NCBI GenBank assembly: GCA_023374045.1
Contig: CM041776.1
Coordinates: 475,405,375 to 475,469,374, forward strand
DNA length: 64,000 bases
Source: Limonium bicolor
Lineage: Eukaryota > Streptophyta > Magnoliopsida > Caryophyllales > Plumbaginaceae
Direction of reading: 5' to 3'
The translations under genes and the position numbers were made by a program. The notes beneath the pieces were generated by a model that saw only the letters and a list, made by a program, of their open reading frames with translations, was not told where the DNA came from and did no database searches. How positions within the stretch are numbered: position 1 is the stretch's first letter; each line of letters starts with the position of its first letter. This document shows, piece by piece, positions 10,430 through 62,545 of the stretch.

Positions 10430-10432
10430 GTC

Positions 10433-21304: not shown

Positions 21305-21312
21305 TATATAAA
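21305..21312 (+). promoter_or_regulatory. TATA box candidate in 5' LTR
   Basis: TATATAAA in a pyrimidine-rich setting just after the GC-rich cluster. The equivalent place in the 3' LTR (about 25336) has lost two bases and reads ctattaaac, so only the 5' LTR keeps the box. Confidence 0.5.
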
Positions 21313-38581: not shown

Positions 38582-38609
38582 TGGTATCAGAGCGTAGTAA
38601 CGCTCCGAT
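38582..38609 (+). other. Primer-binding site inside a stem-loop (A)
   Basis: PBS TGGTATCAGAGC is at 38582-38593. ATCAGAGCGT (38586-38595) faces ACGCTCCGAT (38600-38609) across loop AGTA, with one mismatch. The last pair of the stem is T-A here and A-T in B. Confidence 0.85.
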
Positions 38610-39472
38610 GTCTAGAAATTACTGAGCATAGTGATTACCGAGTTAGGGTTACAACCGTTTCACAATAGAGAAGTAGGAACCTAACCTTGAATAATCGTTA
38701 ATGATAACGGATACCCCTTAACGTCTGAAAGGATGATGCAATTGTTTAAACCCAAGACCTTGTGGTCACAGTACCTAATGCATATTAAATGCTTGTTCAG
38801 ATGTCAGGCAAAGGACGCGGTCGTGGCGGAGGCCGTGGAGGGTCTGTTGAGGGACCCGGCACGCAGACGATAGCTGAGATCGTCGTAGCCACTGTATCAC
38901 AGATGCTACCACAAGTAATCGCGGCTGTACAGCAGACACACCAGAACCAGCAGACTCAGGCAGGACCAATCCCACCCCCACCACCCAGAGAAGTGAATTG
39001 GGTGAAGAGTGTCACAGATCTCCGACCTCCATGCTTTAGAGGCGAGAGTGACCCCGCTAAGCTCGAGGCTTACATCTCTAAGATGGAGACGGGCTTCGAG
39101 ACCCTCGAGGCTCCTACTGGAGTGAGGGTGAGGATAGCGGCGTACTATCTGAAGGATGCTGCGATGGACTGGTGGAAGTTAGTAAAGGGTGAGTATGTTG
39201 ATGACCCTACATTTGACTGGGAAGCCTTCACCGTAATTCTCTTATCCAAATACTATCCAGAGCACGTCAAGACAAAGAAGCGTTTAGAGCTCGACGTCTT
39301 AAAGATGACGGAGAAGATGAGTGTTGATGAATACTATCGTACCTTCACTTCTATTCTACAACTACTGCCCGACCTTGGGTATACCAGCCAGGTCTTGGTC
39401 GACCGCTTCTACGGCGGATTGGGCCATCGCCTCCGGTATGGCATGAGGTACCCACGGTTTACCTCACTCCAG

Positions 39473-39562
39473 GTAAACAACGTTTTAAACCCTTAGTGTC
39501 ATAGTCTATGTGAACTAATCCCTTGTATGCAACGAATGTTATCTAATGCCTGGTGACTCCAG
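39473..39562 (+). other. Gag intron 1 (A)
   Basis: 90 bp, CAG|GTAAAC to CTCCAG|GA. Removing it joins the LQ codons of exon 1 to ECYHAA of exon 2, as in element B. Inferred from sequence comparison. Confidence 0.7.
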
Positions 39563-39841
39563 GAGTGCTATCATGCTGCATCTCGTGTTGAGATCACATG
39601 CCAGTTAAGGGATGAAGAGCAAGCGCTTAAGCGCAAGGCTAACAGCAAGAACACCAGCTCAGAGGAGTAGAACTAGGGTAAGAATTGGAAGAAGAGGAAG
39701 AGGAAATTTGCCCAGCAGCATTAGAAGAGTACCCCGGGAGATAGCAGTGCCTAGCTGAGAAGGGCAAGGCAGCTAAGCCGTTGTAGCTCGCCTACACTAC
39801 GCAGGTGGCAGCGAAACCACTGAGATCTCACCCTTATAAGG

Positions 39842-39918
39842 GTAAGAATCTGAAACTAAATTAGTATGTATGTGAATTAGTATCAGTATGTCGAACCCTG
39901 CTAACTCCAAAGTTACAG
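39842..39918 (+). other. Gag intron 2 (A)
   Basis: 77 bp, AAGG|GTAAGA to GTTACAG|GT. It splits a glycine codon after base 1; B splits the equivalent codon in the same phase. Confidence 0.7.
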
Positions 39919-40263
39919 GTTCTAATTCTGGCTATGGTAAGAACAACATTGACGACCGTAACTACGTCTACTGAAACTGCAACAAGGATCACCCCGGCAC
40001 CGATTGTCAAGGAAGAGAAATACAATGCTACAACTGCCAAAAACCGGGACACCGTGCGAATGAATGCCCTGATAACTCGAATCCCAAGGGCAACTACCAG
40101 GGATACAAACAGCGAGAAGGCAAGGAGGTTGCATCTGACGATGCTCAGGCCCAGCAGACCTTGCAGGGACAGGGGTCCCGAGGTGCTCAGAAGGGCTCAC
40201 CACAAAGGCAGCCAGCCTTGCACATCATCGACCGTGATGGGACCGGTACAAAGTCCGGCTTAG

Positions 40264-41300
40264 GTACTAACTAATACCTTTAATCCTTGAGAGCATGTCT
40301 AAAGTATTAATTGCCAACTTGAGTGAATGCATGGATGTGTAGAATTTGAGCATAAGTTTAAGCATGAAATGAACTAGTTGAAACTAGAACTCATGCTAGA
40401 TGTAATTTACAACCTTAAGGAAATTTAATATCTACTACCCAATACCTTCGAACCCACTCCATGAAGAAGCCGACATCACCACTCACCACTCGACCAACGA
40501 GCAGTGTCAGGTTATCCGACCAGGTATGATCTTACTAAAAGGATACCTAACACCTGAAGCACAAATTGCCATCATTTGACGATCAACGAGATAGGAGTAG
40601 GTCCAGGAGGATTTTACACACCTGAATTTCCTGGAGGAGCAAAGATGAAGCTGAAAATGATGTGCTTGGGAAAGGATTGGAATCCTTATACCAAGACGTA
40701 CCAAGAGACACGAACGAAAGACGGAGCAACACCACCAGCAATACCCATCGAATTGTAGATGCTTGTTACACAAGCTATAGAAATTGCACAACAATGTGAA
40801 GATGATCGAATCCCTGCACTTGAAGCAGATTTATGTATTGTCAACTTCTATGAGAAAGAAAGACGACTTGGTTTACACCAAGATAAGGACAAGACAATAG
40901 AATCTCTTGAACAAGGAGTGCCCGTAGTGTCTTGGTCTATTAGTGATGACGCCGTATTTTTGTATAGCGAGCAGAAGCATGTGAACCTCGCCGAGAAAAT
41001 GGTATTGAGATCAAGAGATGTCTTGATCATGGGTGGAAAATCAAGGTTTCTGTATCACGGTATCAAAAAGATCAAATTGAATACGGCACCGCCGGCAATA
41101 ATCAATGCCACACACATAAAACCAGGACGCCTGAACCTTACCTTTAGAAAGTATTAACCTTGTAATGCCATGTAATGCATTAGTAATGTGTATTAGAGAC
41201 ACAATATGTATGATGGATGGTTTATTAATAAAAGCAGTGTTGGTTATTAAATTCCACTTGTGTTATACCATCAATTCTTATAAAATTTATGAATCATTAG
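40264..41300 (+). other. Gag-pol intron containing the AlkB frame (A)
   Basis: Donor TTAG|GTACTA, acceptor CATTAG|GT at 41300. Splicing joins phase-1 exon 3 to the protease exon in frame. An alternative acceptor TTAAG|GA at 40419 lies before the AlkB frame. Both acceptors correspond to sites in B. Confidence 0.6.
40420..41157 (+). pseudogene. AlkB-type Fe(II)/2-oxoglutarate dioxygenase, copy A
   Basis: AlkB-family enzymes oxidatively remove alkyl groups from nucleic acid bases using Fe(II) and 2-oxoglutarate. Visible here: RPGMILLKGYLTPEAQI, GGFYTPEFPGG, MMCLGKDWNP, IVNFYEKERRLGLHQDKD (metal ligands His at 40876-40878 and Asp two residues on), VPVVSWSISDDAVF, MGGKSRFLYHGI (distal His) and PGRLNLTFRKY (the two conserved arginines of the RxNxTxR signature). 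Similarity is closest to plant cellular AlkB/ALKBH1-like proteins from remembered motifs, not a search. Inactivated by a frameshift near 40577, a TAG at 40756-40758 and an indel near 40472. It lies between Gag and protease in the same orientation. Confidence 0.88.
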
Positions 41301-41640
41301 GTTGTGGACTCAGTACAGAAGGTTCCCTAAGTATCCTCACTGAGACACAGGCCGATAAGAGCGACACTATCACGGGTCCTTTCCGTAAATGGCATTGATG
41401 CCTCCTATTATTCGGCTCCGGCGCCTCTCATACCTTGTTTCACCGTCATTTGCGAAGAGGTTGGGGCTAGACACAGAAGAGCTACCAGACTTTATGGTTG
41501 CGCTCCCGTCGAAGGAGCAAGTGCGGTGCACTAAGTACTACCGAGCTGCCACTATCCGAATCAAGGGTGAAGAATTCCCCATCTCTTTCATCGAATTCAA
41601 TGGGTTGGGATTCTCCTTGATAGTCAAGATGAACTGATTG
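41301..41640 (+). pseudogene. pol: Aspartic protease of element A
   Basis: Starts at the inferred intron acceptor (CGLSTEGSLSILTETQ) and matches B's protease. The active-site Asp-Ser-Gly appears as GSGAS (Asp to Gly), a frameshift precedes it near 41396, and the conserved MNWLERY end has a TGA in place of Trp (41636-41638). It would have processed the polyprotein but is inactive. Confidence 0.75.
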
Positions 41641-42545
41641 GAGCGGCACAAGGGCGAATCCTCTGCGCCGAGCATAGACTGTTGCTCAAGAGTCCATCTG
41701 GGGTTACTGTTTCATACCGTCAGAGGCCTAGAGAGCCTTCGACTACGATCATCTCCGTTATGGCTATGTACCGGGAGCTCAGAAAGGGGCACGATGTGTA
41801 TTAGTGCTATGTGCAAGATCTAGAGAGAGTTTCAGAATTTAGCACCGAGGTGCCACCACCGAGAATAGTAGAGTTCGAGATTGACCTCGAACCTGGTACT
41901 GGTCCCATTGCTAGGGCACCATACCGTATGGCACCGGCCGAAATGACAGAACTTAAAGTGCAACTACGTGATCTACTCGACAAAGGGTTTATACGCCCGA
42001 GCGTATCACCCTGGGGAGCACCAGTCCTCTTCGTGAAGAAGAAGGACGGTAGCCTCCGCCTCTACATCGACTACCGCAAATTGAATGCGGTCACTATAAA
42101 GAACAAGTATCAATTGCCACGCATCGATGACCTGTTTGATCAGTTAAAGAGAGCTTCAGTCTTTTCCAAGATTGACATCCGATCCGGATATCATCAGATT
42201 GCCATCTGAGAGCAAGATATTGAGAAGACGGCATTCCGTACGAGATATGGCCACTACGAATTCACGGTGATGTCATTCGGTTACGAACGCGCCAGCCAAA
42301 TTCATGGATCTAATGAACCATCTGTTCAGCGATCAGTTGGACACTTCAGTAGTAGTCTTCAGCGATGATGTACTTATGTATTCAAAGTCAGCAGAAGAGC
42401 ACAAAAATCACCTGAGAAAAGTCTTGAGACACTGCGTGAGAACCAGCTGTATGCGAAGTTCTCCAAATGCGAGTTTTGGCTTGATCAGGTATCATTCCTT
42501 GGACATGTCATCTCGAGCGCGGGTATCTCAGTAGACCCGCCTAAT
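41641..42545 (+). pseudogene. pol: Reverse transcriptase of element A
   Basis: Contains [31 protein letters not shown], the [14 protein letters not shown] block and the catalytic [10 protein letters not shown] (x-x-Asp-Asp). A stop at 42208-42210 and frameshifts near 42280 and 42430 break it. It is close to the RT of B and to the fragment at 19742-19903. Confidence 0.88.
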
Positions 42546-43144
42546 TGAAGCAGTACGATCATGGCCTAGACCTAAGATTGTTACCGACATCTGGAGATTT
42601 CTTGGTCTAGCCGGTTATTACTGGAGATTTGTGAAAGACTTTTCTAAAGTCGCAAAGCCCATGACGACATTGATTAAGAAGGATGCACCATTTGTGTGGA
42701 CTGACGATTGTGAGAAATCCTTTCAGAGCTTGAAGGACTCGTTAACCTCAGCGCTCGTTCTCACGTTTCTAGAGGGCATAGAGGGATTCGAGTTATATTG
42801 TGATGCATCTGGTAAGGGCATGGGATGCGTACTCATGCAGCATGGCAAGGTAGTAGCTTACGCCTCCCGCCAGCTGAAGAAACATGAGGAGAATTACCCG
42901 ACTCTTGACTTAGAGCTTGAAGCCATAGTCTTCGCATTGAAGATATGGCGACATTATCTATACGGGGTAAGCATCACCATATATTCTGATCATAAGAGCC
43001 TGCAGTACATTTTCATACAGAAAGAATTGAATCTGAGACATAGAAGGTGGATGGAATTCCTATCTGATTACGACATTGACCTTCAGTATAAAGAAGGGAA
43101 GGCGAACGTTGTAGTCGACGCCCTGAGATGTCGAGCACACTCAC
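42546..43144 (+). pseudogene. pol: RNase H of element A, truncated pol
   Basis: The connection region ([20 protein letters not shown]) is followed by RNase H with [59 protein letters not shown] and [10 protein letters not shown]. The catalytic Asp in DASG is present. The frame ends at RAHSL where foreign LTR sequence starts, so integrase is lost. Confidence 0.88.
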
Positions 43145-43781
43145 TGTAGACACCAAAAATTCTCACCCCATGAAGCAAATTCCGAAATAGTGAATAGAAT
43201 AAGAGGGTCGTCGCCTTTCATTTCAAAACACATTTACGTGTAGGCCAAAAAGAAACCATCGTTTTTTGACAAAATTCTTAAATCATTTTTTAAAGCATTT
43301 CAGAAAAAACCCAATTCTTCGAAAATGAATTTCCAACTACAATCCGGTTTCAAACCTTTCCCTTTTGGATTATTCACTTATTTTACCGTGTTCCACTTAG
43401 CTGTGTTTATTTATTATTACTTTTTTAAATCTTTTTGTTTTGTTTTATATAGCTTTTATTTTAAGCCATTTTATTACTTGTTTATCTGATTTTATTGTCA
43501 TTTTACTTTCTAGTATTTACTTTTGTCATGTTTTTCGATTAGTTTTAGAATTATTTTTCATCATTTTATTCATTTCATTTATACTACCTTTATTATTATT
43601 TATCTGTTTTTGTCTTCATGTTATTATTTCATGTATTTTTAAAAGAAAACATTTCATTTTGTTGCAAGGTCATTAGGTTCATCTATGTTCTCATTTTAAA
43701 CACTAGTGTTTTAGGGATTTTATTTCAGTCTGAGCTACTCTTTTCTATTTTGTCTCAACTAATTTGACGAGTTTGGTTAAT
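43145..43781 (+). repeat. 5' part of a Tat-like LTR inserted in element A
   Basis: Begins TGTAGACACC, a common start of plant Tat-group LTRs, exactly where element A's frame breaks. It runs about 0.64 kb of T-rich sequence until element B's LTR starts. No second copy is present, so the call rests on the terminus and on the abrupt break. Confidence 0.55.
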
Positions 43782-47474: not shown

Positions 47475-47570
47475 GGCGTTGTAGCACCGAAGCGTTTAGT
47501 TATTGTTTAGTTATTTATTTCCGCTGCGATTTCATTAATTGTGAAGTTCAATGTAGGGGTGTTACAAAAG

Positions 47571-47598
47571 TGGTATCAGAGCGAAGTATCGCTCTGAT
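47571..47598 (+). other. Primer-binding site inside a stem-loop (B)
   Basis: PBS TGGTATCAGAGC at 47571-47582; stem ATCAGAGCGA (47575-47584) / TCGCTCTGAT (47589-47598), loop AGTA, ten perfect pairs. The stem covers most of the PBS. Confidence 0.88.
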
Positions 47599-48452
47599 GA
47601 CTAGAATACCGAGCTTAGGAATATACCGAGTTAGGAAACCTAACTACAGTTACCTAAGTGAGCAGTTATGGGAAGGTTAACCACTAACCAAGTGTGGAGA
47701 TACCTTGTTGTCGGGAAACGTTTCAACCGTTGGAACCGATAAGTGTGTAAGCATAATCCTAATAATGTTCATGTGAATTCAGATGTCAGGTAGACCGCGA
47801 GGTAGGGGCCGCGGAAGCGGTACTGGAGATACGGATGACCAGGGCGAGAATACTACGGCTCAGGTTATGGCCGAAGCTGTAGCGGCCGCCGTAGCCCAAA
47901 TGGTTCCACAACTAGTAGCTGCAATTCAGCAGGGGAAAACACCCGAAGTTCAACCACCACCGCCACCGCCACGAGAGACCAACTGGGTCAAGGCATTGGC
48001 AGACTTGAGACCCCCTTCATTTCATGGGGAGCCGACCCACGTAAGTTGGAGGCGTACATCTCCGAATTGGAGACCGCCTACGAGACCTTGGCTGTACTGC
48101 AGGGCTAAGGTCCGTTTGCCGCTTACTACCTTAAGGGTTTGGCACAGAGTTGGTGGAAGCTTGTGAGAGAGGACCGGATGGCGGATCCTCAGTTTGGATG
48201 GAGGAGTACACGGCTCTACTACGAGCCAAATACTACCCTGTGCATGTTCAAGAGGCCAAGCGCCTGGAGCTGGATAGTCTGAGGCAGGGGGACAAGGTGT
48301 CGGTTGATGAGTACTACACTACATTCACCGGCCTTATCAACCTGTTACCGGACCTGGGATACTCAAACCGGGTGCTGGTAAACCGTTTCTACAACGGTCT
48401 CAACCACCGTCTTCGCTATGGGATGGGGCCAGCTGAGTATACTACCTTGCAG

Positions 48453-48555
48453 GTAATTAAAATGAAGTGTGATGTGAATAAGTGTAATCCATAAGTGAGT
48501 ATTAATGTGAGTTTGTGAGTATGTTTTGCGGGGCATGATGACATCCTAAATTCAG
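48453..48555 (+). other. Gag intron 1 (B)
   Basis: 103 bp, TTGCAG|GTAATT to AATTCAG|GA, phase 0. It contains an in-frame stop, and its removal restores the Gag frame. Position identical to A although intron sequence is not conserved. Confidence 0.78.
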
Positions 48556-48817
48556 GAGTGCTATCATGCCGCTGCTAAGGTTGAGATCACCGTCCGTCTG
48601 AGGGACGAGGAGAATGCGCACAAGCGCAAGGCCACGAGCGAGGGCCAGAGTCCGCAGGGGTACGGGGGAGAAAAGAAGAAGAAGAAACCTTATTCCCAGC
48701 CCCAGAAGAGTCAGCACCAGGGTGACAAGGGCCAAGCCCAAACCACCACAGCTGAGGAGCCACTAAAGCTCACATATGCTTATGCGGCGAAACCCCTACG
48801 CTCTTACCCACCTAAGG

Positions 48818-48900
48818 GTAATTATCTAATCCTGTGTGATAAGTTGAAGTGTATGTTGATAAGTTGTGAAACAAGTATTGATTGTGTATTATGATAGCAG
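48818..48900 (+). other. Gag intron 2 (B)
   Basis: 83 bp, AAGG|GTAATT to ATAGCAG|CT, phase 1. Splicing joins PPKG to ASTGSGPERHYYC. The site matches A. Confidence 0.75.
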
Positions 48901-49389
48901 CTAGCACGGGCTCTGGACCGGAGCGCCACTATTACTGTAAGTGGTGTAACGGAGACCACCCCGGCAAGGACTGCAAGGGAAACGACGTACAGTGTCGTTA
49001 CTGCGAGAAGTGGGGTCATCGTGACTATGAGTGTTACCGGAACCCCAACAGCAGAGTCAACAAGCCTAAGGGGCAGTGGAAGGGTAAGGCCACAGCAGCT
49101 ATTGATGGCCCGAAGACGGCTAACCAGCCACCCACAGATCAGAGATACACTAATTCCCAGAAGGGGAAGGGGTCGGGACCTTGCAAGGCCACCCTGAATG
49201 TGGTGGACCGGTCTGAGGCGCCAGGGCCCTCTTCTAGACCAGGTACCGCCTAAACTGTTGAATGTAATAAGTGATTGCATACCGCATTTCATGCATGTGT
49301 GTACTAGTGAGTCCAAATGTGTTATCATGTGAGTAAAGAGTTAAAGTATAGTGTGAAAGTCACCTAATTAGATAATTCTAAACTTAAAG

Positions 49390-50127
49390 GAACCTCTAAT
49401 ATATGTTATCCAATCCCACCCACACCAAACCCTGAAGAAACCACCATCAACATCACCGACTTTCCAGTGGAGCAATGTCAGGTTATCCAGCCAGGTATGA
49501 CTCTTAAATGGATACCTGACACCGGAAGCACAAATCCATATCATCAGACGATGCGATGAACTAGGAGCAAAAGCAGGAGGTTTCTACACACCCGAATACC
49601 CGAACGGATCAAGAATGCAATTGAAGATGATGTGCATGGGTAAGGACTGGAACCCTTACACCAAGACATATCAAGAAGTGCGAGCTGAAGACGGAGCAAT
49701 AGTACCAAGTATACCCGAGGAGTTCCATGCGGTCGTTAACCACGCCGTGGGAATTGCTCAACAAGTTGAAACGGATTCAATTCCAAATGTGAAAGCAGAT
49801 CTATGCATTGTGAACTTCTACCGGAAAGGTGGACGGTTAGGTTTACACCAAGATAAGGACGAGTCGCCCGAGTCTCTAAGTAAGGGAGTACCCGTGGTGT
49901 CTTGGTCCATTAGTGATACCGTAGTGTTTGTGTATGGCGAGCAGAAGCGTGCTGACCTCGCAAAGAAGCTAGTGTTGAAGTCAGGAGATGTGTTAATCAT
50001 GGGTGGGCAGTCAAGGATGCTATATCATGGCATCAGAAAGATCAAACTGAATACCGCACCGTCGGCAGTGATCAATGCCACACACATGAAACCTGGACGT
50101 TTGAATTTGACCTTCAAACAGTTTTAA
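49390..50127 (+). pseudogene. AlkB-type Fe(II)/2-oxoglutarate dioxygenase, copy B
   Basis: The best-preserved AlkB module. From the proximal acceptor the frame runs through a proline-rich linker and VEQCQVIQPGM, then a small deletion near 49500-49510 shifts frame, then GYLTPEAQIHIIRRCDELGA, GGFYTPEYPNGSR and MMCMGKDWNPYTKTYQEV. Catalytic parts: IVNFYRKGGRLGLHQDKD (His 49846-49848, Asp 49852-49854), VPVVSWSISDTVVF, SGDVLIMGGQSRMLYHGI (His 50026-50028) and PGRLNLTFKQF. The first signature arginine is kept (50098-50100) and the second is lysine (50116-50118). The catalytic part from about 49510 to the stop is fully open. Family role: base dealkylation in DNA or RNA. Here an effect on element RNA or cDNA methylation is possible but is only inference. 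It could also be expressed from an internal ATG such as 49615. Confidence 0.9.
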
Positions 50128-50311: not shown

Positions 50312-50686
50312 GCTGTGCACTCGGAACGGGAGGTACACTGAGTGTCTGCAATGAGGCAGAAGCCGGCAAGAGCGGCACAATCCTCACCGGTACCTTTCCA
50401 GTCAATGGCGTGGATGCTTCGATCTTGTTCGACTCCGGAGCCTCACACACATTTATTTCGCTATCCTTTGCGAAGAGGCTGGGGTTAGACGGTGATGAGA
50501 TGCCAGACTTCCTAGTCACTCTCCCGTCGAAAGAGCGGATCAGGTGTACCCGCTACCACCGAGATGCTGTTGTAAGAATCAGAGGTGAAGAGTTTCCGAT
50601 CGACTTGATAGAGTTCGACGGACTTGGATTTGATGTGATTGTCGGGATGAACTGGTTGGAACGGTACAAGGGCAGAATCCTATGTG
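50312..50686 (+). CDS. pol: Aspartic protease of element B (5' part of pol exon)
   Basis: Open from the inferred acceptor, through GTILTGTFPVNGVDASILFD, the active-site DSGASHTF (Asp at 50431-50433), SLSFAKRLGLDGDEMPDF and GLGFDVIVGMNWLERYKGRI. It is a retropepsin-type protease that cleaves the Gag-Pol precursor. The frame is cut at 50686 by the Athila-like insertion and continues at 61649. All key residues are present. Confidence 0.82.
50682..50686. repeat. Target site duplication ATGTG (left copy)
   Basis: Exact copy at 61644-61648. Removing the insertion and one copy restores element B's pol frame through RILCAEHRLL, as in element A. Confidence 0.93.
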
Positions 50687-52541
50687 TGCAAACGATAGAT
50701 TTGACCTATTAAATACCAAGAAATAATCTTAGAGAATAATAAATCAGAAAACCGTCAGGTTGCAAAAATCCTGGTTATTGTAGTAGAGTTTATGGGAACC
50801 AGGTATCGAACCGTGGGACTATGTGATAATATCTAGACTTAGCAAAGGTTATAAATTGAGGGGGAATTTTGTTTTGTTCTAAACTGTGAATTATAATAAA
50901 GACAACAAGAATTTAAATAACAGCTAATAATTAAAATAACAGAATATAAAAGTGGTTGTGAATATGGAAGAACGGACTCTGGGTTCAGGTTTTACTCGTT
51001 TGATTAATTATGCTATTCTACCGGTTTAATTAAGAATAATTTGGCAAAATTCCTTTTATAGTCTTTAGATTTAAATCCTAAATTCTAATGACCTCGTTTA
51101 CCAGAACATGCAAGGTTTGATCTAAACTCAGGCAAAACACATGTAAACGGCTAGTTAAAAGGAATATAATTTTGCATCTGTGAAATACTATTTATTCAAT
51201 CAGAATAAATTTTCCACAGACATAACAATTAATATGACCTATCTATTTATCACGGATCTGATCAAAATAGATTTCGTAAAGCAATTTAAACTCATGTAAT
51301 TTATTAAAATGCGAGAGAATAACATTAATTGTATCAAATTATAATTAATTTAAACCGGTAAAATAAAGTGCACAATTAAAACAAACTAATAATAACCATC
51401 TCCCAGAGTATAATTAATCTACCGGACATGTTAAATAAATGAGCAGAGTAAGAGTAAAAGAAATCATCTGTTCGCTGACTCCTGCTCCGTTATCTGACAG
51501 ACCGGAATAGAATTGAGGGATGATAATTATGGAGAATGGTCGGCGTGGGTTTTGTGGTGGTGGTCGATGATTTGTGAATTGTAAATGGATGTGTACGTAA
51601 GTGAATTGTTTGTGAAATGGAAAAGGTGAAGGTGGGGGCGATGGAGTAGTATGGTGTCGGGTGATTTTGTGAATGGGTTTGTGAATGGAGTGGAGCAAAT
51701 TGGATCGTGGGTGAATGACTGGATGATGGACGATTTGAGAGTGATTTGCAGCTCTATTTATAGATACGTGGAACGGGATGCAGACAAGGAGATGAGCGGT
51801 GCAGTAGTCAAAGGCGGGGAGTTGGTACAGATCGGTGAAGATTTGAGTCAGAGATTTCATCGGGGGCAGAGCAATTGATTGCAGAGAGTCACGCGTGCAG
51901 AAATTAAGGTGGGCGCAATTAATGAAGTAGCAGTTCGAATGCGGCGCACGCGAACGGAAGAAAACTGTTCGAAATTCTGTTCTGTGCGCATGTATGCATG
52001 TCCGCCAGGCGGTCTGCCTCTCTTGTCCGCTCGAAATCAGGCGGTTGTCTCTATTGCTTCCGCCTCCTTAACATGCGGTAGCTTCTCTGATGTCCGCCAC
52101 TTATCAGGCGGGCTCTATTGCTGTTCCGCCATGCGGTTGTCACTCTTGTCCGCCACTTATGAGGCGGACGCCTCTGTCCTGTCCGCCAGGCGGTTGTGGA
52201 TCTCTTGTCCGCCTCGCGGTGGCATGTGTCTAGTCCGCGAGTTATCAGGCGGACACACCTATTGTGTCTGCGCCCGTCTTGTACAGAGTGTACTCCAATC
52301 TTGAATCGGCCCCATTCTTCGTTATAAGTCCGTTTTGGTCCCCGTTTGTTGCGTTGGAAAGCTCGTGAGGAGAACTATGCATTTCTGTCATTATTTCCTG
52401 ATTTTATCATATAAATTGGAATTAGTTCCTACCCAAAGTAAGAGTTACAAAAAGCATAGGATAAGTGTGAGAAGGTGCGTAAAAAGTTACATAATATAAT
52501 GACCAAGCACCTATAAAACTATATAAATTTCACACTTATCA
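50687..52541 (-). repeat. 3' LTR of Athila-like element
   Basis: Copy of 59747-61643 with small indels. On the minus strand it starts TGATAAGTGTG and ends GTTTGCA. It includes the gtccgcc/ggcggac cluster (51990-52265) and a TATA box on the minus strand at 51755-51762. Confidence 0.92.
51990..52265. repeat. GC-rich GTCCGCC/GGCGGAC dyad cluster (3' LTR)
   Basis: Repeated dyads, for example GTCCGCC-ACTTATGA-GGCGGAC and GTCCGCCAGGCGGTC. The second LTR has the cluster at 61078-61345. Confidence 0.8.
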
Positions 52542-52556
52542 AATCACCCCACACTT
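52542..52556 (-). other. Polypurine tract of Athila-like element
   Basis: Minus strand AAGTGTGGGGTGATT next to the 3' LTR, preceded by ttgcttgaggacaagcaaag as in the non-autonomous partner. Confidence 0.85.
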
Positions 52557-53858
52557 AGCTCTTTGCTTGTCCTCAAGCAAAACTCTCAAACACGAGTTCA
52601 AGTCAAGCGAATGAAACTCAACTCAAAAGGAAGGACACAGAAGAAAGATTACTAGTTTTACCAATACAGGGGCATTTTTTTTTTCATAAAACAAGAAGTC
52701 ATTCAAAGCTAATAATAGAGAAACAAAACCATAAGAACCTCGCCTTTAGCAATGAGCCAATCCACCTTTACATTCTCAAACCGTTAGAACGACAAGGGGC
52801 ATGAAGTAAGATCTTATTCCATCATACCTTTCAATGCCACATACTCTTGATCCATAGAGAAGATTATTTTTTCATTTAGCACAATGATTGCACATTTTTT
52901 TAATTTAAGCGCTTTTAAGTTCTTTCACCACAGACTTTTCTCTCCACCCATGTAACGGCTTTGGGTCAACTATCCCAGATCACAAGGACCTTAGGTAGCT
53001 AGGTGATGAGGCACCCCAAAGGACTTAATAACCAAGTGGACGAGGCCTGACTTTGGATCAGAATTAAAATTAAGCATGCTTAGGATCAGCGGAGTACCTT
53101 GCCTTGTTCTTTTTCCAACCATTTCAATCCAGACATTCCAAGGCTCAAGGCTAAAAACAGGGTTCAGATGGTGAGTATTCTCAATCATTTTAGTATCAAT
53201 AGAACATAGACTTCATTTTTAATCAATTAAAACCAGAAAAATTTAAAAATTTTGCACCCCATTATCAGCTAACCAATTACTCCTCTATGGCTTCCTTCCA
53301 AGTTGAGCAACACAGCAGGAGTCAAACGAATGCAAGAGAAAAGAGCTCAAAGATAAACAAAAGATAAGCTACGAAGGAGGTTACCCCACCCCACACTTAG
53401 AGTGAAGCAATGTCCTCATTGCTGGAAGAATATTGTGCAAGCAATCCAACGGGAAACAAAAGTAAGACATATAGTAGTTCAGAGGGGAGTATGTGTAACA
53501 GTAAAGAGTGAAAAGGATTTAGAATACTCCCCAGAGTCTGTTCACGGTGTGTTGCACGGCCCACCCCACACTTGAGTTCTGCTGTAGAATTGCGCAAGAT
53601 GTGCCTGGAAAGAAGATTCTATACAGCCAGAAGAACTCAAGTTATTACTGCCTCATGCGCTGCCACTCCTTAATGGAAAATAAACTAATAATATTTTTTT
53701 TTTTTAATATAGAATTATTGAAGCACACAGAAAACTGTAAAGTAAATGTAAGTTAAGAAAAAGGTAGAGAATTCTTCCGGTAAATTGAAAATAAGTGGTG
53801 GGTTGCCTCCCACCAAGCTGCTCTCTTTTATAGTCTCAAGCTAGACTCATAAGTCCGA
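52557..53858 (-). other. 3' spacer of Athila-like element
   Basis: 1.3 kb between integrase and polypurine tract with no coding frame. Minus-strand motifs GGGAGGCAACCC (about 53804), ctcaagtgtggggtg (about 53565) and an atgaggacattg block with taagtgtggggtgggg (about 53385-53420) match the non-autonomous element at 23430-23900 in order. Confidence 0.75.
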
Positions 53859-55169
53859 TTAATTAGAAGAGGAAGAGGAGTGGGAAGGGGTCCCACAACT
53901 TCCTAGAACTAAGTTGCGTAGCTTTCGGAACTTATGCTTCAATCGCCATGGTAGAGACGTCTTTTTAGGTGGCGCCGACTCCGAAACAGGGGAAGAGAGG
54001 TCCTGCTGTACCTGGACAAAAGAAACTCCAAGCAAGTTAGTAGAAACATCAGCAGGACAAGTATACCTTTTCAGACGGGCCCCATTAACTTTGAAGGTTT
54101 CACCCTTCTTGTTTTCCAGTTTGTAGGCTCCAAATGAAGTAACCCCTACCACCTTAAATGGTCCTGCCCAGTGAGATTTAAGCTTTCCTGGAAAGATCTT
54201 CAATCTAGAATTGTAGAGGAGCACCCAATCTCCAACTTTGAAGTCACGTTTCTTGATCATTTGATCGTGGAGTTCTTGGTGCTCCTTGTAGATTCGAGCA
54301 CTGTTGTAAGCTTTATCTCTTAGTTCTTCAAGCTCTGAAAGCTGAAATTTGCGTTTCTCACCAGCAGCAAGTATGTCAAAGTTCAGGGCCTTAAGTGCCC
54401 AGTACGCCTTATGCTCCAACTCAACAGGTAGATGGCAAGATTTCCCATATACCAGCCTAAAAGGAGACATCCCGATGGGTGTCTTGAATGCTGTCCTGTA
54501 GGCCCAGAGAGCATCATCTAACCGTAGAGACCAGTCCTTTCTTGAAGAGTTTACTGTCTTCTGGAGAATCCACTTCAACTCTCGATTGGATACTTCAGCT
54601 TGTCCATTTGTTTGTGGGTGATATGGTAGTGCAACCTTATGACGTACTCCGTACTTAGCCAACAAGGCATCGAATGAACGGTTGCAAAAATGTGATCCCC
54701 CATCACTGATAATTGCTCGTGGAACTCCGAAGCGAGTGAAGATGTGCTTTTTGATAAACTTGATCACGGTCTTTGAATCAGCATTCTGGCATGGTATGGC
54801 TTCAACCCACTTGGACACATAGTCCACTGCTACCAGAATGTATTGATAACCTTGTGAAGAGGGAAATGGCCCCATAAAATCGATACCCCAACAGTCAAAA
54901 AGTTCGACTTCCAAAATGCTTTGCTGAGGCATCTCATGTCGCCTTGAAGTATTGCCCATGCGCTGACAGCTATCACAACTAGCCACAAAGGTTTGGCAGT
55001 CTTTATGGAGTGTGGGCCAATAGAATCCGGACTCCAAAACCTTGGCGCCGTCCGATGGGATCCATGATGGCCTCCAGCTTCTCTGGAGTGACAAAACTCC
55101 AGAAACACTAGGTACCTCATCATCAGGGAGACACCTGCGAATTAAGCTATCTGCACACACTCGAAACAA
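53859..55169 (-). pseudogene. pol: Integrase of Athila-like element
   Basis: A 436-codon open frame. It holds [11 protein letters not shown] (zinc-finger end), [20 protein letters not shown] (first catalytic Asp), [16 protein letters not shown] (second Asp), [18 protein letters not shown] (Glu) and [20 protein letters not shown], then a basic C-terminal DNA-binding region with [19 protein letters not shown]. It inserts the element cDNA into the genome. The integrase core looks intact, but the upstream join to RNase H is shifted (frames overlap at 55142-55169) and the zinc-finger start is disturbed near 55010. Confidence 0.92.
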
Positions 55170-56038
55170 GTGAGGGTCTTCCCAGATATAATGGCGTGAG
55201 TCAGAAAGGAATTTCTTTTTCTGAGCATATGATAATCATGAGGAACAACTCCAGAAACAAGAAAATTAGCCATATCAGCATACCATGGCTCTTGCACCTT
55301 TTTCAAACTGAAGACGGCTTCATCGGGAAAAAATTCATTAATAGGAATACCGTCGTCAGGAGTTACCATCCTAGAGAGATGGTCAGCAACAACATTCAGT
55401 TTACCACTCTTGTCCCTCACTTCTATATCGAATTCCTGTAAAAGAAGAATCCAACGTAGCAAGCGAGGCTTGGCCTCTTTCTTGGCAAACAAATATTTAA
55501 GAGCAGAGTGGTCAGTGTGGATAATCACTTTACTTCCCCATAAATATGATCGAAATCTATCTAAGGAGAAGACCACTGCTAGGAGCTCTTTCTCAGTTGT
55601 TGTGTAGTTTCTCTGGGCATCATCTAGAGTTTTGCTGGCATAAGCAATAACTCTTAACACCTTATCTTTCTTTTGGCACAGGGCTGCACCTACTGCAAAG
55701 TCACTAGCATCACACATTATTTCAAATGGCGATGACCAGTCAGGAGAAACAACGATAGGGGCAGCTACCAATTTTTGCTTAATTAAATTAAAAGCAGAAA
55801 TACAATCTTCAGAAAATATAAATGAAACATCTTTCATTAGCAGATCAGTCAAAGGTTTAGCAATTTTAGAGAAGTCTTGAATAAACCTTCGATAGAAACC
55901 AGCATGCCCAAGAAACGATCTTACTTCCTTTACACAAGTGGGAGCTGGTAGCTTCTCTATCACTTCGACTTTTGCTTTGTCAACCTCAATCCCTTTAGCA
56001 GACACCTTGTGGCCGAGCACTATCCCATCCTTTACCAT
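55142..56038 (-). pseudogene. pol: RT thumb/connection and RNase H of Athila-like element
   Basis: Begins in [20 protein letters not shown], then [20 protein letters not shown], RNase H with [56 protein letters not shown] and [10 protein letters not shown]. Catalytic Asp and Glu positions are present. The frame is separated from the RT palm by about 90 bases in another frame. Confidence 0.9.
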
Positions 56039-56126
56039 AAAATGGCATTTCTCCCAGTTGAGAACTAGGTTGGTCTCTTCGCACCGTCCAAGGATAAGAT
56101 CAAGCTGTGCTAGACAAACATCAAAA

Positions 56127-56621
56127 TCAGAGCCATAGACAGAAAAAGTCCATAAATACCTCTATACTCTGCTCAATGAAGTCTGCAAAGATGGCCTGCA
56201 TGCATCGCTGGAAAGTGGCAGGGGCATTGCATAAACCAAAGGGCATTCTTTTGTATGCAAAGGTACCAAATGGACAAGTAAAGGTAGTCTTGTCCTGGTC
56301 CTCAGGTGCAATAGGAATTTGAAAGTACCCTGAAAAACCATCTAAAAAACAGTAATATTCCTGCCCAGCCAATCTCTCTAGCATTTGATCAATAAAGGGG
56401 AGTGGGAAATGATCTTTCCTGGTGGCTGAATTCAAACGCCTATAATCTATACACATACGCCATCCAGTGATCTTTCGTTGGGGAATGGACTCACCTTTGT
56501 CGTTTATAACAGCTTCAAAACCTCCTTTCTTAGGAACTACCTGTACAGGACTTACCCATGTGCTGTCCGATATAGGGTAAATGATCCAGCGTCCAGAAGC
56601 TTCAACACCTCGTCTTGACAA
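56127..56621 (-). pseudogene. pol: RT palm of Athila-like element
   Basis: Contains VSPVQVVPKKGGFEAVIND, the MCIDYRRLNSATRKDHFPLP block, FLDGFSGYFQIPIAPEDQDK, FGTFAYKRMPFGLCNAPATF and VFMD. The catalytic Asp-Asp motif is broken: a short deletion near 56140-56150 leaves MD followed by FFCLW instead of a second Asp. A frameshift also precedes it at about 56621. RT from this copy cannot be active. Confidence 0.9.
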
Positions 56622-57027
56622 CTTCCTTCATGTTAGGGTTGAGCCGACGCTGGGGTTGTCTGACAGGTTTGTAGTCTTCCTCCATATAGATACGATGTGT
56701 ACAGAAGGCCGGGATGCCTTTGATATCAGCTAGAGTCCATCCGATGGCTCTTATGTCTCTCAGACTTCAAGTAACCTGCTTTCTTGCCCAGAAGTCAAAG
56801 AAGATGAAACAATGACAGGCAAGTAATTATCATTAGCTAAAAAGCAGTACTTGAGATTAGAGGGGAGCTCCTTAAGCTCAAGTACTGGAGGTTGCTCTAT
56901 AGAAGGAACAGGTCTTTGGATTTCTTTATCAAGTCTCTCCAAAGGAGGGCGATAGGCTTGAAAACCTGGTTTTCCTCTCTCTACATGTGCTAGAGCTGTA
57001 TTAACATCCATATTAAGAGTTTTATCC

Positions 57028-57805
57028 TCAACAGAAGATAAGAACATGTTCTAAAGGTTCAAAATCTGAAAAAGTAGAAGAAAGTATAGAATAAATCTCA
57101 TCATCAGTAGAAAGTTCACATACCTCGCCATCCTCATCTTGCATACTTACCGACATAACTGAATGAGCTGAAGTAGAACTTAACTTCATCATCTTTTTCA
57201 TATCAAACTCTATCTTCTCATCTCCGTACCTCAAGGTGATTCTGCCATCATGCACGTCAATGACCGCCTTGGCAGTACTTAGAAAAGGACGACCCAAAAT
57301 GAGTGGGACCTCCACATCATCATCTATGTTTAAAACAACAAAATCCGCAGGAAAGATGAAGCGGTCAACTCCCACTACAAGATCTCGCACAATTCCCATC
57401 GGTTTTATCTCGGATCTGTCGGCGCAGCTGGAGTTTAAAAGGGACTGGGTGAAGCTCTCCTCCTTTTACCTTCAAGAAGGTTGCATATGGCATGATGTTG
57501 ATGCTTGCACCCAGGTCACACAGGCCGCTTCCACAATCTATATCTCCGATAAAGCAGGGAACAATAGGAGTGCCCGGATCCTTCTGTTTTGGGGGAAGTG
57601 CTCGAAGTAACGCCGTAGAGCACTCTTCTGTAAGGTGGACAGTCTCCTTGTCCTGCTTCTTCTTCCTCTTTGTTATGAGATCCTTCAAAAATTTTGCATA
57701 ATTGGGCATCTCCTGAAGAGCATCAATTAAAGGAATATCAATAGTCAGTTTCTTAAATATGCTTAAGAATTTATTGAATTGCTCATCTAGACACTTCTTT
57801 TTCAT
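57028..57805 (-). pseudogene. pol: Protease region of Athila-like element
   Basis: 57365-57805 has CFIGDIDCGSGLCDLGASIN followed by IMPYATFL, the Athila-type DLGAS active site. 57028-57399 continues with VPLILGRPFLSTAKAVIDVH. A frameshift near 57380-57400 separates them. 56760-57047 is a further shifted linker toward RT. Confidence 0.8.
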
Positions 57806-57825
57806 CCTGTTTGGAAATGGAAGCT

Positions 57826-59611
57826 CTATTTTCTTAGGAGTAGAAGAAGGTATATCAATTTGAATAGAAGATGGAGAAGGAGAAGAATTGATTGGAGCCT
57901 GTCTCCTCAGAAACTACCACTGGTGGGACCGAAGGCTCTGGTGATTCATTAGAATGGGTGATCTTTTCACCAGTTTGTTGTGCAGTCACTTGTTGTTGAT
58001 TATTCCCAGCTGCTTGCCACTTCTTAACATCACGGCTGCACTGAGCTCATCCTCAGGTTGGATTCTGAAGATGCACCACAATTGCAATCCTCAAGGCCTT
58101 GGCCGTCTCTCTTGGATTCTGCTGAGATTGTGATGGAAATGAGCCTGGCTGCCTTTGATGCTGGTTGTTAAGTAGCTGGTTCATCTGCTGCTCCAGATTT
58201 CTCTGGCTATCATCAAGGATTGGTTGAGAGTTTGTTGTTCCTTCTGGTTGGTAGCCATGGAAGTAATTATATCTTGGAGCTTTTCCATCTTTTCATCAGA
58301 TGCAGATTTAATAGGTGGCTGGTAAGAGTTCTGGCCCTGTCCCATCTGCATCTGAGGACGAGCTTGATTGTATGGTTGCCTAGAGAAGCCTGGGGGTCCC
58401 TGCACATTACTTTGTAAAAGATTCGAATTTAAGCATTGTTGGGATTACCATACCTGAGATTCGGATGTTGATTTCGGTTCCAGGGCTGTTGGTAATTCCC
58501 TTGTCCTACAAAGTTGGCTTCTTCAGCGACCCTATCTCCTCCAGATCAGGGCATACTCAACGAGAGTGTTCCCCACCACAATGAGAGCACAGAGGCTCAG
58601 ATGAGGATGAAGAAGCTATCCTCTTTCCTGCTGAGAAGGCTGACCATTAATTAGAAAATCGTCAAATCTTTTCACTAGTGAGCTTACCAGTGTGGATTGT
58701 TGAGCTTGTGACTCTGCCATCTGCTCCATCCAAGGATCTATATTTCTTGCACCTTTGGCACCCATAGTCATAGTTCTGCCACCTTCGGTGCCCACTGACG
58801 AACTTCTTCTATGTACGTCTCCATGGCCGCCATGAAATCATTGCCGGATCGGTTGAGGATGTTTCCTCCCAAAGCTGATCTAACTTCGGCTTGATGTATA
58901 TGCTGCAAACCATTAAAGAATGTCATAGCAATACACGTGAGATCTTGTCCGTGATGAGGACACTGTCGGAGCATTTCTTTAAAACGATCCATGCTTCACA
59001 GATAGTCTCAGTACCTCCCTGTTTAAAAGCAAGTAAAGCAGCAACCAAATTCCTAGTTCTAGAAATAGGATTATTTTTCATAGAACCTGGTTGTCATCTC
59101 CTCCAACTAGTGATAATACCAGAGGGAAGACAGTAGAACCATTTCATTGCTTCACCAGTGAGGCTGCTAGGAAATAAACTCATTCTAGCATACTCCAGGA
59201 GATTATCTGAGCACCCAATTTGATCAATATTTATTAGAAATCGGTTTACGTGATCTAGGCGTCGTTGGGGTTGGAACCGTCAAATGTGCCAGAGGGCATC
59301 TCTCGTATGACCTTGTTCTGATGTGATGGCTTCAGATCCTTCCATTCCTTCATTAATTAAGGTGGTAGCGTAGGAAGAGCTACTGGGCTTCTTCTTGGAA
59401 TGGCTGCTGGTCTGCTAAATTGCTTCATTGCTTGGCTACCGTTTGTAGGAGTTGCCATTTGTATCTCTCTTTGAAACCTCTGTTGGCGTCTGGCTAGCTG
59501 AGCGGTACGTTCGATTTCCGGGTCAAGGATTCTATCCCAGTCGAGATGAGTGTCTGACCAAGAACGAGTGTACACCATCAACAGTCTGCAAAAAAGAAAA
59601 ATAGATTCCAC
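57826..59611 (-). pseudogene. gag: Gag of Athila-like element (heavily shifted)
   Basis: The start region (59357-59611) has YTRSWSDTHLDWDRILDPEI and ARRQQRF. The middle (58768-58992) has ERF-like MDRFKEMLRQCPHHG, FFNGLQHIHQAEVRSALGG and a TYIEEVRQWAP helix. The end (58181-58405) is glutamine-rich with MEKLQDIITSMATNQKEQQ. A CSHCGGEHSR zinc-knuckle piece reads near 58570-58600. Many small deletions prevent one continuous frame. Confidence 0.75.
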
Positions 59612-59725
59612 AAAAGTTTAAAAGTAGAGTAAAATAAAATAAAAATAATAGAAATAATAATAGTAAAAAAATAAATGCAGTAAATCAAATTTTTAACCCA
59701 GGCTAAGGACTAGACAGGAATCTAG

Positions 59726-59743
59726 TCCCCGGCAACGGCGCCA
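59726..59743 (-). other. Primer-binding site of Athila-like element
   Basis: Minus strand TGGCGCCGTTGCCGGGGA, three bases inside the 5' LTR end. Confidence 0.92.
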
Positions 59744-59746
59744 ATT

Positions 59747-61643
59747 TGCAAACGATAGATTTGACCTATTAAATACCAAGAAATAATCTTAGAGAATATA
59801 AATCAGAAACCGTCAGGTTGCAAAAATCCTGGTTATTGTAGTAGAGTTTATGGGAACCAGGTATCGAACCTGTGACTATGTGACAATCATCTAGACTTTA
59901 GCAAAGGTTATAAATTGAGGGGGAATTTTTTTTTGTTCTAAACTGTGAATTATAATAAAGACAACAAGAATTTAAATAACAACTAATAATTAAAATAACA
60001 GAATACTAAAAGTGGTTGTGAATATGGAAGAACGGACTCTGGGTTCAGGTTTTACTCGTCTGATTAATTATGCTATTCTACCGGTTTAATTAAGAATAAT
60101 TTGGCAAAATTCCTTTTATAGTCTTTAGATTTAAATCCTAAATTCTAATGACCTCGTTACCAGAACATGCAAGGTTTGATTTAAACTCAGGCAAAACACA
60201 TGTAAACGGCTAATTAAAAGGAATATAATTTTGCATCTGAAATACTAGATTTATCAATCAGAATAAAATTTTCCACAGACATAACAATTAATATGACCTA
60301 TCTATTTATCACGGATCTGATCAAAATAGATTTCGTAAAGCAGTTTAATAAACTCATGTAATTTATTAAAATGCGAGAGAATAACATTAATTGTATCAAA
60401 TTATAATTAATTTAAACCGGTAAAATAAAGTGCACAATTAAAACAAACTAATAATAACCATCTCCCAGAGTATAATTAATCTAGCCGGACATGTTAAATA
60501 AATGAGCAGAGGTAAGAGTAAAAGAAATCATCTGTTTGCTGACTCCTGCTCCGTTATTCTGACAGACCGGAATAGAATTGAGGCGGATGATAATGTATGG
60601 AGAATGGTCGAGCGTGGGTTCTGTGGTGGTTCGAGTGATTTGTGAATTGTAAATGGATGTGTACGTAAGTGAATTGTTTGTGAAATGGAAAAGGTGAAGG
60701 TGGGGGAGATGGAGTAGTGTGGTGTCGGGTGATTTTGTGAATGGGTTTGTGAATGGAGTGGAGCAAATTGGATCGTGGGTGAATGACTGGATGATGGACG
60801 ATTCCCTCGATGAGTGATTTTGCAGCTCTATTTATAGATACGTGGAACGGGATGCAGACAAGGAGATGAGCGGTGCAGTAGTCAAAGGCGGTGGAGTTGG
60901 TACAGATCGGTGAAGATTTGAGTCAGAGATTTCATCGGGGGCAGAGCAATTGATTGCAGAGCTAGTCACGCGTGCAGAAATTAAGGTGGGCGAATTAATG
61001 AAGTAGCAGTTCGAATGCGGCGCACGCGAACGGAGAAGAAAACTGTTCGAAATTCTGTTCTCGTGCGCATGTATGCATGTCCGCCAGGCGGTCCTGCCTC
61101 TCTTGTCCGCTCGAAATCAGGCGGTTGTCTCTATTGCTTCCGCCTCCTTAACATGCGGTAGCTTCTCTGATGTCCGCCACTTAATCAGGCGGAAGCCTCT
61201 GTGTGTGTCCGCCAGGCGGTTGTTGCACTCTTGTCCGCCACTTATGAGGCGGACGCCTCTGTCCTGTCCGCCAGGCGGTTGTGGATCTCTTGTCCGCCTC
61301 GCGGTGGCATGTGTCTAGTCCGCGAGTTATCAGGCGGACACACCTATTGTGTCTGCGCGCGTTTGTATTATATATATACACACACGAGTGTACTCCAATC
61401 TTGAATCGGCCCCAAATTCTTCGTTATAAGTCTGTTTTGGTCCCCGTTTGTTGCGTTGGAAAGCTCGTGAGGAGAACTATGCATTTCTGTCATTATTTCC
61501 TGATTTTATCATATAAATTGGAATTAGTTCCTACCCAAAGTAAGAGTTACAAAAAGCATAGGATAAGTGTGAGAAGGTGCGTAAAAAGTTACATAATATA
61601 ATGACCAAGCACCTATAAAACTATATAAATTTCACACTTATCA
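59747..61643 (-). repeat. 5' LTR of Athila-like element
   Basis: Pair of 50687-52541; outer end TGATAAGTGTG at 61643 is followed by the ATGTG target duplication. It contains the dyad cluster at 61078-61345 and a TA-rich stretch at about 61368-61384. Confidence 0.92.
60829..60836 (-). promoter_or_regulatory. TATA box candidate in 5' LTR of Athila-like element
   Basis: TATAAATA on the minus strand followed by AGAGCTGC, identical in the 3' LTR at 51755-51762. It is the likely core promoter for the element's genomic RNA. Confidence 0.6.
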
Positions 61644-61648
61644 ATGTG
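61644..61648. repeat. Target site duplication ATGTG (right copy)
   Basis: Matches 50682-50686 exactly. Confidence 0.93.
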
Positions 61649-62545
61649 CTGAGCATCGACTGCTTCTTCGGAGTCCATCTGGGGTTACCATATCTTACCG
61701 CCAGAGGCCCAGGGAGCCTTTGACTCAGATCATCACCGCCATGGCTATGTGTCGTGAGCTACGACGAGGGAGTGATGTATACCTCTGCTATGTCCAGGAC
61801 ATAGAGAGAGATCCAGAGTTTAGTCCTGATGTGCCGGTAGTGTCGGAGTTTCCTGATGTATTTCCTAAGGAACTGCCGGGCATGCCGCCAGCACGGGAAG
61901 TGGAGTTTGAGATTGATTTGGTTCTGGGTACCGGACCAATTGCGAAGGCGCCCTATCGTATGGCTCCAGCAGAAATGACAGAGCTCAAGGAGCAACTGAG
62001 AGACCTACTCGACAAGGGTTTGTTCGCCCTAGCGTTTCACCATGGGGAGCGCCAGTCCTCTTCGTGAAGAAGAAGGACGGTCTCCGCCTGTGTATTGACT
62101 ATCGAGAACTGAATGCAGTTACGGTGAAGAACCGTTACCCTTTACCACGCATTGACGATTTGTTTGATCAGTTGAGGGGAGCATCAGTATTCTCCAAGAT
62201 AGACCTACGATCCGGATACCATCAGATTGCCATCCGTGACAGTGATATCGAGAAGACAGCATTCAGAACTAGGTATGGACATTATGAGTTTACGGTTATG
62301 CCGTTTGGGTTATCCAATGCACCAGCTAAGTTCATGGACTTAATGAACCGCTTGTTCCAAGATCAGTTGGACAAGTCAGTGGTAGTCTTCATCGATGATA
62401 TTCTTGTGTACTCGAAATCGAGAGGTGAGCATGAAAGCCACCTGAGAAATGTGTTACAAACATTGAGGAAGAATCAGTTGTATGCTAAATTTTCGAAATG
62501 TGAGTTTTGGTTTAACCAAGTATCCTTCTTGGTCATGTGATTTCT
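61649..62545 (+). pseudogene. pol: Reverse transcriptase of element B
   Basis: Continues pol after the insertion: [116 protein letters not shown] and catalytic [14 protein letters not shown]. Single-base changes shift frame near 62030 and 62530, and one residue appears lost in the KKKDG-LR stretch. The catalytic Asp-Asp is present. Confidence 0.92.

Follow-up and report, generated by a model that had tools for sequence, protein, structure and literature searches.

An ALKBH1-type AlkB exon between Gag and protease in chromovirus-like Ty3/gypsy retrotransposons of Limonium bicolor

The AlkB domain of plant RNA viruses sits inside the replicase. Such domains occur in the Alphaflexiviridae, Betaflexiviridae and Closteroviridae (cited in PMC9289625), and the Ogre/Tat element Gypsy_Pa_2799 of the orchid Phalaenopsis carries an ALKBH5-like ORF2 with m6A RNA demethylase activity in vitro (PMC9289625). 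In the screen of 121 plant genomes reported there, only two Phalaenopsis species had the domain. Plant LTR elements are said to be generally without introns, Ogre and EVADE being exceptions (PMC12786077). Here we describe a Ty3/gypsy element of Limonium bicolor which has an AlkB exon between Gag and protease, and which appears to make use of it through alternative splicing.

The window, the whole 64,000 bp stretch of DNA that was analysed, contains two copies of this element, A and B, with the following features (copy B unless stated otherwise):

38582..43146, + strand: copy A, a second family of the same element, with PBS, gag, AlkB exon, protease, RT and RNase H
47560..47566, + strand: 3' end of the 5' LTR (TGTTACA); the same motif ends the LTR of full-length copy c1
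47571..47582, + strand: primer binding site (PBS) TGGTATCAGAGC, which we take to be of the tRNA-Met type; the same 12-mer is present in 5 of 6 long copies
47783..48452, + strand: gag exon 1 (Retrotrans_gag, PF03732), frame broken
48453..48555, + strand: gag intron 1, GT...AG, 66% AT
48556..48817, + strand: gag exon 2
48818..48900, + strand: gag intron 2, GT...AG
48901..49242, + strand: gag exon 3, nucleocapsid (NC) with two zinc knuckles, ending at the common phase-1 donor AG|GTA
49243..49389, + strand: intron 3, whose donor is also that of the putative alternative splice
49390..50127, + strand: AlkB exon, an FDIC-like linker followed by the 2OG-Fe(II) AlkB domain and its own stop codon
50128..50311, + strand: AT-rich spacer 3' of the AlkB stop, containing AATAAA and ending at the protease acceptor TTAG|G
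50312..50686, + strand: protease exon (RVP_2) with phase-1 acceptor, interrupted by a nested insertion
50687..61643, - strand: nested Ty3/gypsy element in the copy B pol, with RT and integrase, separate from the AlkB element
61644..63997, + strand: remaining pol (RT, RNase H and start of integrase), running off the window

The initial annotation of this DNA read 49390..50127 as one long AlkB frame, lying on the same strand between a zinc-knuckle Gag and a DSGAS protease. That arrangement is borne out, as the zinc-knuckle Gag is found at 48882-49250 (knuckles identified by eye) and the protease, which carries DSGAS, matches RVP_2 with an E value of 2.1e-27; the catalytic motifs it named (LGLHQDKD, YHG and PGRLNLTF) are likewise present in the translation. 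The frame itself stands in part: 49501-50127 is open, and a small deletion in copy B has put 49390-49500 out of that frame. Position 49390 is the first base 3' of a splice acceptor that is common to copy A and other genomic copies. The present analysis adds to that reading that AlkB apparently forms a spliced exon of its own, closed by a stop codon. It also adds that copy B is dead: neither gag nor the beginning of the AlkB exon is in frame, and pol is split by the nested element. The 5' LTR of copy B is placed by its 3' end, its start being undelimited. The nested 11 kb element, presumably of the Athila-like class, has LTRs at about 50687-52542 and 59747-61643 (1.9 kb) that are 95.5% identical, and a target site duplication (TSD) of ATGTG.

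Copy A lies 9 kb upstream of copy B; its PBS is at 38582-38593, its gag begins at 38801, and its AlkB exon (40420-41157) is more decayed than that of copy B. The two copies are about 70% identical in DNA over the AlkB-to-protease stretch and 72% over pol. Elsewhere in the window three long direct repeats of 97-99% identity (1-1173 with 18427-19600, 3578-5306 with 10432-12227, and 20597-22250 with 24632-26268) are probably LTR pairs of other elements.

A match to the 2OG-FeII/AlkB profile, on which the initial annotation staked its reading, is present in copy B: residues 1-205 of the 49501-50124 frame match PF13532 (2OG-FeII_Oxy_2) with an E value of 7.7e-45 and 153.9 bits (cut-off 31.2), covering profile positions 4-193 of 194. 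Among solved AlkB proteins the nearest is rice OsALKBH1 (5xeg, 218 bits), of the plant ALKBH1C/1D subfamily, followed by E. coli AlkB (81 bits) and other ALKBH1-named entries (43 bits). An AlphaFold model of the open genomic copy L079 (pLDDT 89.5) has the AlkB fold; in Foldseek it matches OsALKBH1 (5xoi and 5xeg) with TM 0.84-0.93, rmsd 1.8 and 48-49% identity, and E. coli AlkB is also matched, the ALKBH5 structures coming far lower (query TM 0.49-0.53). Ahead of the domain the exon has retained an FDIC motif and a linker like those of host proteins. Among 48 copies examined, the iron ligands H116, D118 and H176 are kept in 47 and the 2OG-ligand arginines R200 and R206 in 46; window copy B has Lys at 206 instead of Arg. 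In the protein database search suggested by the initial annotation, the window AlkB is about 43-53% identical to named plant proteins, a level that would also suit an ordinary host ALKBH1 gene, or a retropseudogene, that adjoins or was hit by retrotransposons.

The distribution of the domain in the genome speaks against such a host gene. A PF13532 search of the 2.92 Gb assembly gave 38,325 first-look candidates, which are unconfirmed; all of the best 150 that were scored lie above the curated cut-off, and 149 of them have no stop codon in the match, but as these 150 were picked for quality this intact fraction is no estimate for all copies. A DNA search with the AlkB exon gave 5,426 first-look candidates, of which 40 were scored and are 96-100% identical, and a host-like query led to 150 scored places of 62-66% identity. 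That query did not find the host ALKBH1 gene; its 150 scored places are element-like instead. There is some overlap between the PF13532 set and the exon-DNA set (scored sets of 150, 40 and 150), and comparison by eye of the host-like-query places with the PF13532 top 150 revealed no common place. AlkB is thus present at hundreds of places by the scored sets, far from the single locus that would have spoken against the initial annotation, and probably at thousands by the loose first-look counts.

The copies fall into several families. The 48 copies examined from the PF13532 top 150 comprise 42 of family B and six of family L, and six examined from the host-like-query set are five of family H and one, L136, whose AlkB-protease stretch matches that of copy A at 73% DNA identity. 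AlkB therefore lies between Gag and protease in at least four diverged families (A, B, L and H). Six of six copies followed over a long range have the order gag-NC-AlkB-protease-RT-RNaseH-integrase, with the exceptions that gag exon 1 was undetected in c3 and that the RT of c5 is split by an insertion; in six of six further copies, from the host-like-query set, AlkB lies between NC and protease/RT. The position of AlkB in the element is identical in all 12 copies checked, which again is not what a host gene neighbouring retrotransposons would give.

The carrier has the features of a Ty3/gypsy element (LTRs, TSD, PBS and the gag-PR-RT-RH-INT order), as the initial annotation held, and its type resembles that of a chromovirus. 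The integrase C-terminus of family L copy L090, the sole copy scanned, has an SH3_Tf2-1 domain and a chromodomain-like stretch (PF00385, 24.4 bits, E 2.9e-5) slightly below the cut-off of 25.1, and for this reason we call the element chromovirus-like; we take it to resemble the Tekay/Del group. Copy c1 is about 14.1 kb long, with full LTRs of about 3.85 kb, a 5 bp TSD (ATAGT) and 53 mismatches in 3,871 columns between its LTRs. The LTRs of two other copies differ by 72 mismatches in 4,246 and 108 in 4,832, in aligned pieces for which the two ends are not both delimited. Judged by these differences, the insertions whose LTRs were compared look young. We note that at G000:C1:497439466-497470353 four AlkB matches about 10 kb apart on one strand form a tandem array of elements, in which neighbours perhaps have LTRs in common.

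The exon structure was read from the alignment of copies A and B, in which exon-like blocks alternate with intron blocks of 34-46% identity and a post-AlkB spacer of 36-56%, identity in AlkB reaching 82%. The introns and spacer of copy B are 66-68% AT, against 43-54% in the exons, and are bounded by GT and AG. Families B, L and A have in common the NC donor AG|GTA and the acceptors of AlkB (AG|GAA) and of the protease (TTAG|G), each of them in phase 1. Since the donor and both acceptors have one phase and AlkB has its own stop, the NC exon could be joined to AlkB, giving Gag-AlkB-stop, or to the protease exon with AlkB skipped, giving Gag-Pol.

Both of these joints have left what look like fossils in the genome. 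The NC|AlkB junction, without intron 3, is found at 13 genomic places and the NC|protease junction at 14, each with at most two mismatches; reversed-pattern controls for both gave none. All three NC|AlkB copies that were read (L140, L141 and L142) are in frame across the junction, and so are both NC|protease copies read (L143 and L144), which have no AlkB. Intron 1 is exactly missing in L117 (one of 34 copies measured) and in L142, and intron 2 in L091 (one of 37 measured), with L122 likewise by motif; L142 has neither intron 1 nor intron 3, and by match coordinates intron 2 is missing too. The spliced-junction forms are rare, since neither NC junction is found among 69 genome loci. We note that L140, L141, L143 and L144 have exactly lost intron 3 or the whole AlkB cassette and have retained introns 1 and 2, so that they are no simple copies of a fully spliced RNA; they look as if they had recombined with partly spliced cDNA. 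Precise junctions could arise in part from microhomology deletion, as AGG stands at both ends, and several of the junction places may descend from a single event. As each of three introns has been lost at the sites predicted for it, splicing is the simpler reading, and on these grounds alternative splicing seems to provide the element with either Gag-AlkB or Gag-Pol. In a further copy, L134, AlkB runs in frame into protease-RT in a 531-aa frame; this fusion came about when the stop of AlkB, the spacer and the beginning of the protease were lost, with breakpoints away from the splice sites.

AlkB might instead be a separate protein, translated from a start codon of its own by internal initiation or from its own mRNA, as in the orchid element and with no fusion to Gag. 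A Met does stand immediately before the domain in most family-B copies and in the family-H copies, AlkB has kept its own stop, and AATAAA follows in most B copies (40 of 42, about 110 bases 3' of the stop). All six family-L copies have PGL and not PGM at this would-be internal start, however, and the absence of the Met there favours fusion to Gag; in every family most copies have retained the sequence that precedes the Met, the FDIC-like linker included, and three spliced NC-AlkB junctions are in frame. We therefore regard the separate protein as unlikely and the Gag fusion as the better account. The AATAAA is present in only one of the six family-L copies, at a different distance from the AlkB stop, and the idea that an internal poly(A) signal makes AlkB a terminal exon in all families was dropped on the family-L evidence.

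Another alternative for the domain as a whole is that it is a passenger, a host exon that was trapped once and amplified with no function. Captured gene fragments are common in LTR elements and the window copies are dead; also, a first pass that included frameshifted copies gave an omega of 0.93 for AlkB singletons (0.22 for common variants), as a passenger would. The test for selection (dN/dS) that the initial annotation had proposed gives another picture. With 40 usable of the 42 family-B copies, 191 codons and variants sorted by carrier number, omega for AlkB is 0.35 for singletons, 0.22 for variants in 2-3 copies and about 0.11 for those in four or more. The protease of the same copies has 0.36, 0.21 and 0.11 in these classes (27 usable of 42; 15 of all 48 were unusable), and NC has 0.44, 0.27 and 0.24 (24 usable of 48). 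Comparison of family B with family L yields a mean omega of 0.11; in 26 of the 252 pairs dS is saturated and no estimate can be given. The 48 copies were drawn from the 150 best PF13532 scorers, by which the singleton omega is lowered. Purifying selection is shown in the copies sampled, in that AlkB would have been constrained like a core protein while the copies were active. A passenger is hardly to be reconciled with an omega of 0.11 for widely carried variants, equal to that of the protease, and the same value between families, nor with the kept catalytic residues and the fact that, of the coding blocks aligned between copies A and B, the one with the highest identity (82%) falls in AlkB; we consider this alternative very improbable and, by omega, ruled out.

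A tree with plant ALKBH families, also suggested by the initial annotation, bears on the origin of the domain. Of its 46 proteins, the 15 AlkBs of element type fall into a single clade (98/99) that excludes the 24 proteins of host type; 21 of the latter, from angiosperms, form a clade as well (100/99), the other three being green-lineage or unnamed, and seven bacterial AlkBs serve as outgroup. The clade apart, the copy number and the constant position together rule out an ordinary host gene or pseudogene, to which we give a negligible probability. Four of the 15 element-type AlkBs are database proteins (P0001-P0004, 61-69% identical) that were placed there by similarity. P0001 and P0003 fall together with families A, B and L (100/96) and P0002 falls together with family H (100/98), a pattern which indicates that the families split early. 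The element clade adjoins the angiosperm host clade. By the AU test a grouping of the element clade with the angiosperms is unrejected (p 0.37), as is one with the legumes (p 0.146), and one with the Ranunculales is borderline (p 0.043).

Searches for relatives elsewhere gave little. Viral contigs scanned with AlkB, RT and protease contained no relatives, and a prokaryote contig scan with AlkB gave bacterial AlkBs only (70 loci). Of the long proteins with AlkB, those listed (120 of 363 matches) carry no Pfam gag domain, and a Gag search gave none at E 0.001 among 7,991 candidates scored, low-complexity words being the suspected reason. We note that the Acidobacteriota-type AlkBs (L001-L006) have 38-43% domain identity to the query, above other bacterial AlkBs at 27-38% (one short match 41%); this nearness may hint that the plant family came from bacteria.

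We propose that a chromovirus-like Ty3/gypsy element captured a plant ALKBH1-type dioxygenase once, long ago, as an exon between Gag and Pol, and has retained it. The donor at the end of the NC exon would join either the AlkB exon, giving Gag-AlkB, or the protease exon with AlkB skipped, giving Gag-Pol, a choice for which the two fossilised splices and the codon phase are the grounds. AlkB, its Fe(II)/2OG ligands intact, has been maintained by selection in the copies sampled. Fusion to NC suggests that AlkB is taken up into particles on the element RNA, and Gag-AlkB would thus enter the virus-like particle by way of the RNA-binding nucleocapsid. There it may take N-methyl groups off the element's nucleic acid, be it m6A, m1A or m3C in RNA, or 6mA or alkyl lesions in single-stranded cDNA. 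The initial annotation likewise suggested that the element may use the enzyme to demethylate or protect its RNA or cDNA. Taken as a whole (an old single capture, spliced Gag-AlkB and Gag-Pol, and a selected, packaged enzyme that demethylates the element's own nucleic acid), we think this proposal reasonably likely. A bolder reading, a splice switch between a polymerase (Gag-Pol) and a particle-targeted demethylase (Gag-AlkB) that acts on RNA or single-stranded cDNA in the particle, is more tentative.

The benefit to the element would be relief of m6A-based sequestration or of blocks to reverse transcription. Two candidates may be put forward by analogy, removal of m6A from the genomic RNA, and removal of methyl lesions that stall RT from the RNA or single-stranded cDNA, since rice ALKBH1 reportedly acts on 6mA and the ONSEN RNA of Arabidopsis is held back by m6A. 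Rice ALKBH1 is reported to remove 6mA from R-loops and to promote gene expression, earlier work having dealt with single-stranded DNA, and ALKBH1 is reported to be active on 6mA in single-stranded or unpaired DNA (PMC10469495); m6A holds ONSEN RNA in stress granules and ALKBH9B releases it (PMC12786077). The same rice work also lends itself to a different view, that AlkB acts mainly on the host and erases m6A of mRNAs or 6mA of chromatin or R-loops so that silencing is weakened: the nearest solved relative of the element's enzyme is reported to demethylate R-loop 6mA and raise expression (PMC10469495), and host targets are offered as an option in the Discussion of the orchid paper (PMC9289625). 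Splicing to the NC exon points at the element's own particle and RNA, however, and we prefer the element's own nucleic acid as the target, an action mainly on the host seeming rather improbable.

If the splice-switch reading is true, the element encodes an epitranscriptomic or cDNA-repair enzyme that is packaged with its genome. A carried AlkB may aid an element by escape from host control or by faithful copying, and with the present one it can be tested whether plants and retrotransposons contend over m6A/6mA or alkylation damage. The element is also abundant enough that its genomic copies appear to record its own splicing products.

Each of the systems nearest to this element shares some of its traits. 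Plant ALKBH1C/1D and OsALKBH1 (5xeg, 5xoi) have the same fold and an FDIC-like motif upstream of the domain; the element exon differs in that it begins near FDIC without an NREKR-like stretch, belongs to a clade of its own and is, as predicted here, spliced to Gag. Tekay/Del chromoviruses (PMC6317226) agree with it in the order of the Ty3/gypsy domains and perhaps, given the match slightly below the cut-off in L090, in a chromodomain-like stretch that follows the integrase, and the present element is set apart from them by its introns between Gag exons and its AlkB exon before the protease. In Ogre and in the Copia element EVADE introns give subgenomic RNAs by alternative splicing (PMC12786077), as proposed here, but in the present case the choice would be between an enzyme exon and the polymerase part. 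Plant RNA viruses are also parasites with an AlkB of their own for nucleic-acid demethylation or repair (PMC9289625), though they are RNA viruses and not retroelements.

The closest system is Gypsy_Pa_2799 of the orchid, likewise a Ty3/gypsy LTR element of plants, present in many copies, that has captured an AlkB with its full catalytic set (PMC9289625). The initial annotation knew of no standard chromovirus with this domain; this agrees with the literature searched (open-licence PMC papers), in which we found neither another AlkB-bearing chromovirus nor such a mode of expression, while the general idea of an AlkB-bearing plant element was preceded by the orchid Ogre/Tat case (PMC9289625). The orchid element is 25.5 kb long, with 6.4 kb LTRs, a tRNA-Arg PBS and dual RNase H, its gag-pol is one ORF, and its ALKBH5-like AlkB is in the separate ORF2 (PMC9289625). 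The present element is chromovirus-like and about 14 kb long with LTRs of about 3.85 kb (one copy) and the PBS TGGTATCAGAGC, has an intron-containing gag, and carries an OsALKBH1-like AlkB exon between Gag and protease; the ALKBH5-like AlkB, tRNA-Arg PBS and separate ORF2 of the orchid type are absent. These differences suggest an independent second capture of AlkB by a plant Ty3/gypsy element, from another AlkB branch and into another element lineage, and as at least two captures have then involved different branches and lineages, demethylation probably repays the element. Relative to the orchid case, what is new, as read from the genome sequence, is the element lineage, the AlkB branch, the position of the domain and its putative mode of expression, which is unusual and is supported by genomic fossils.
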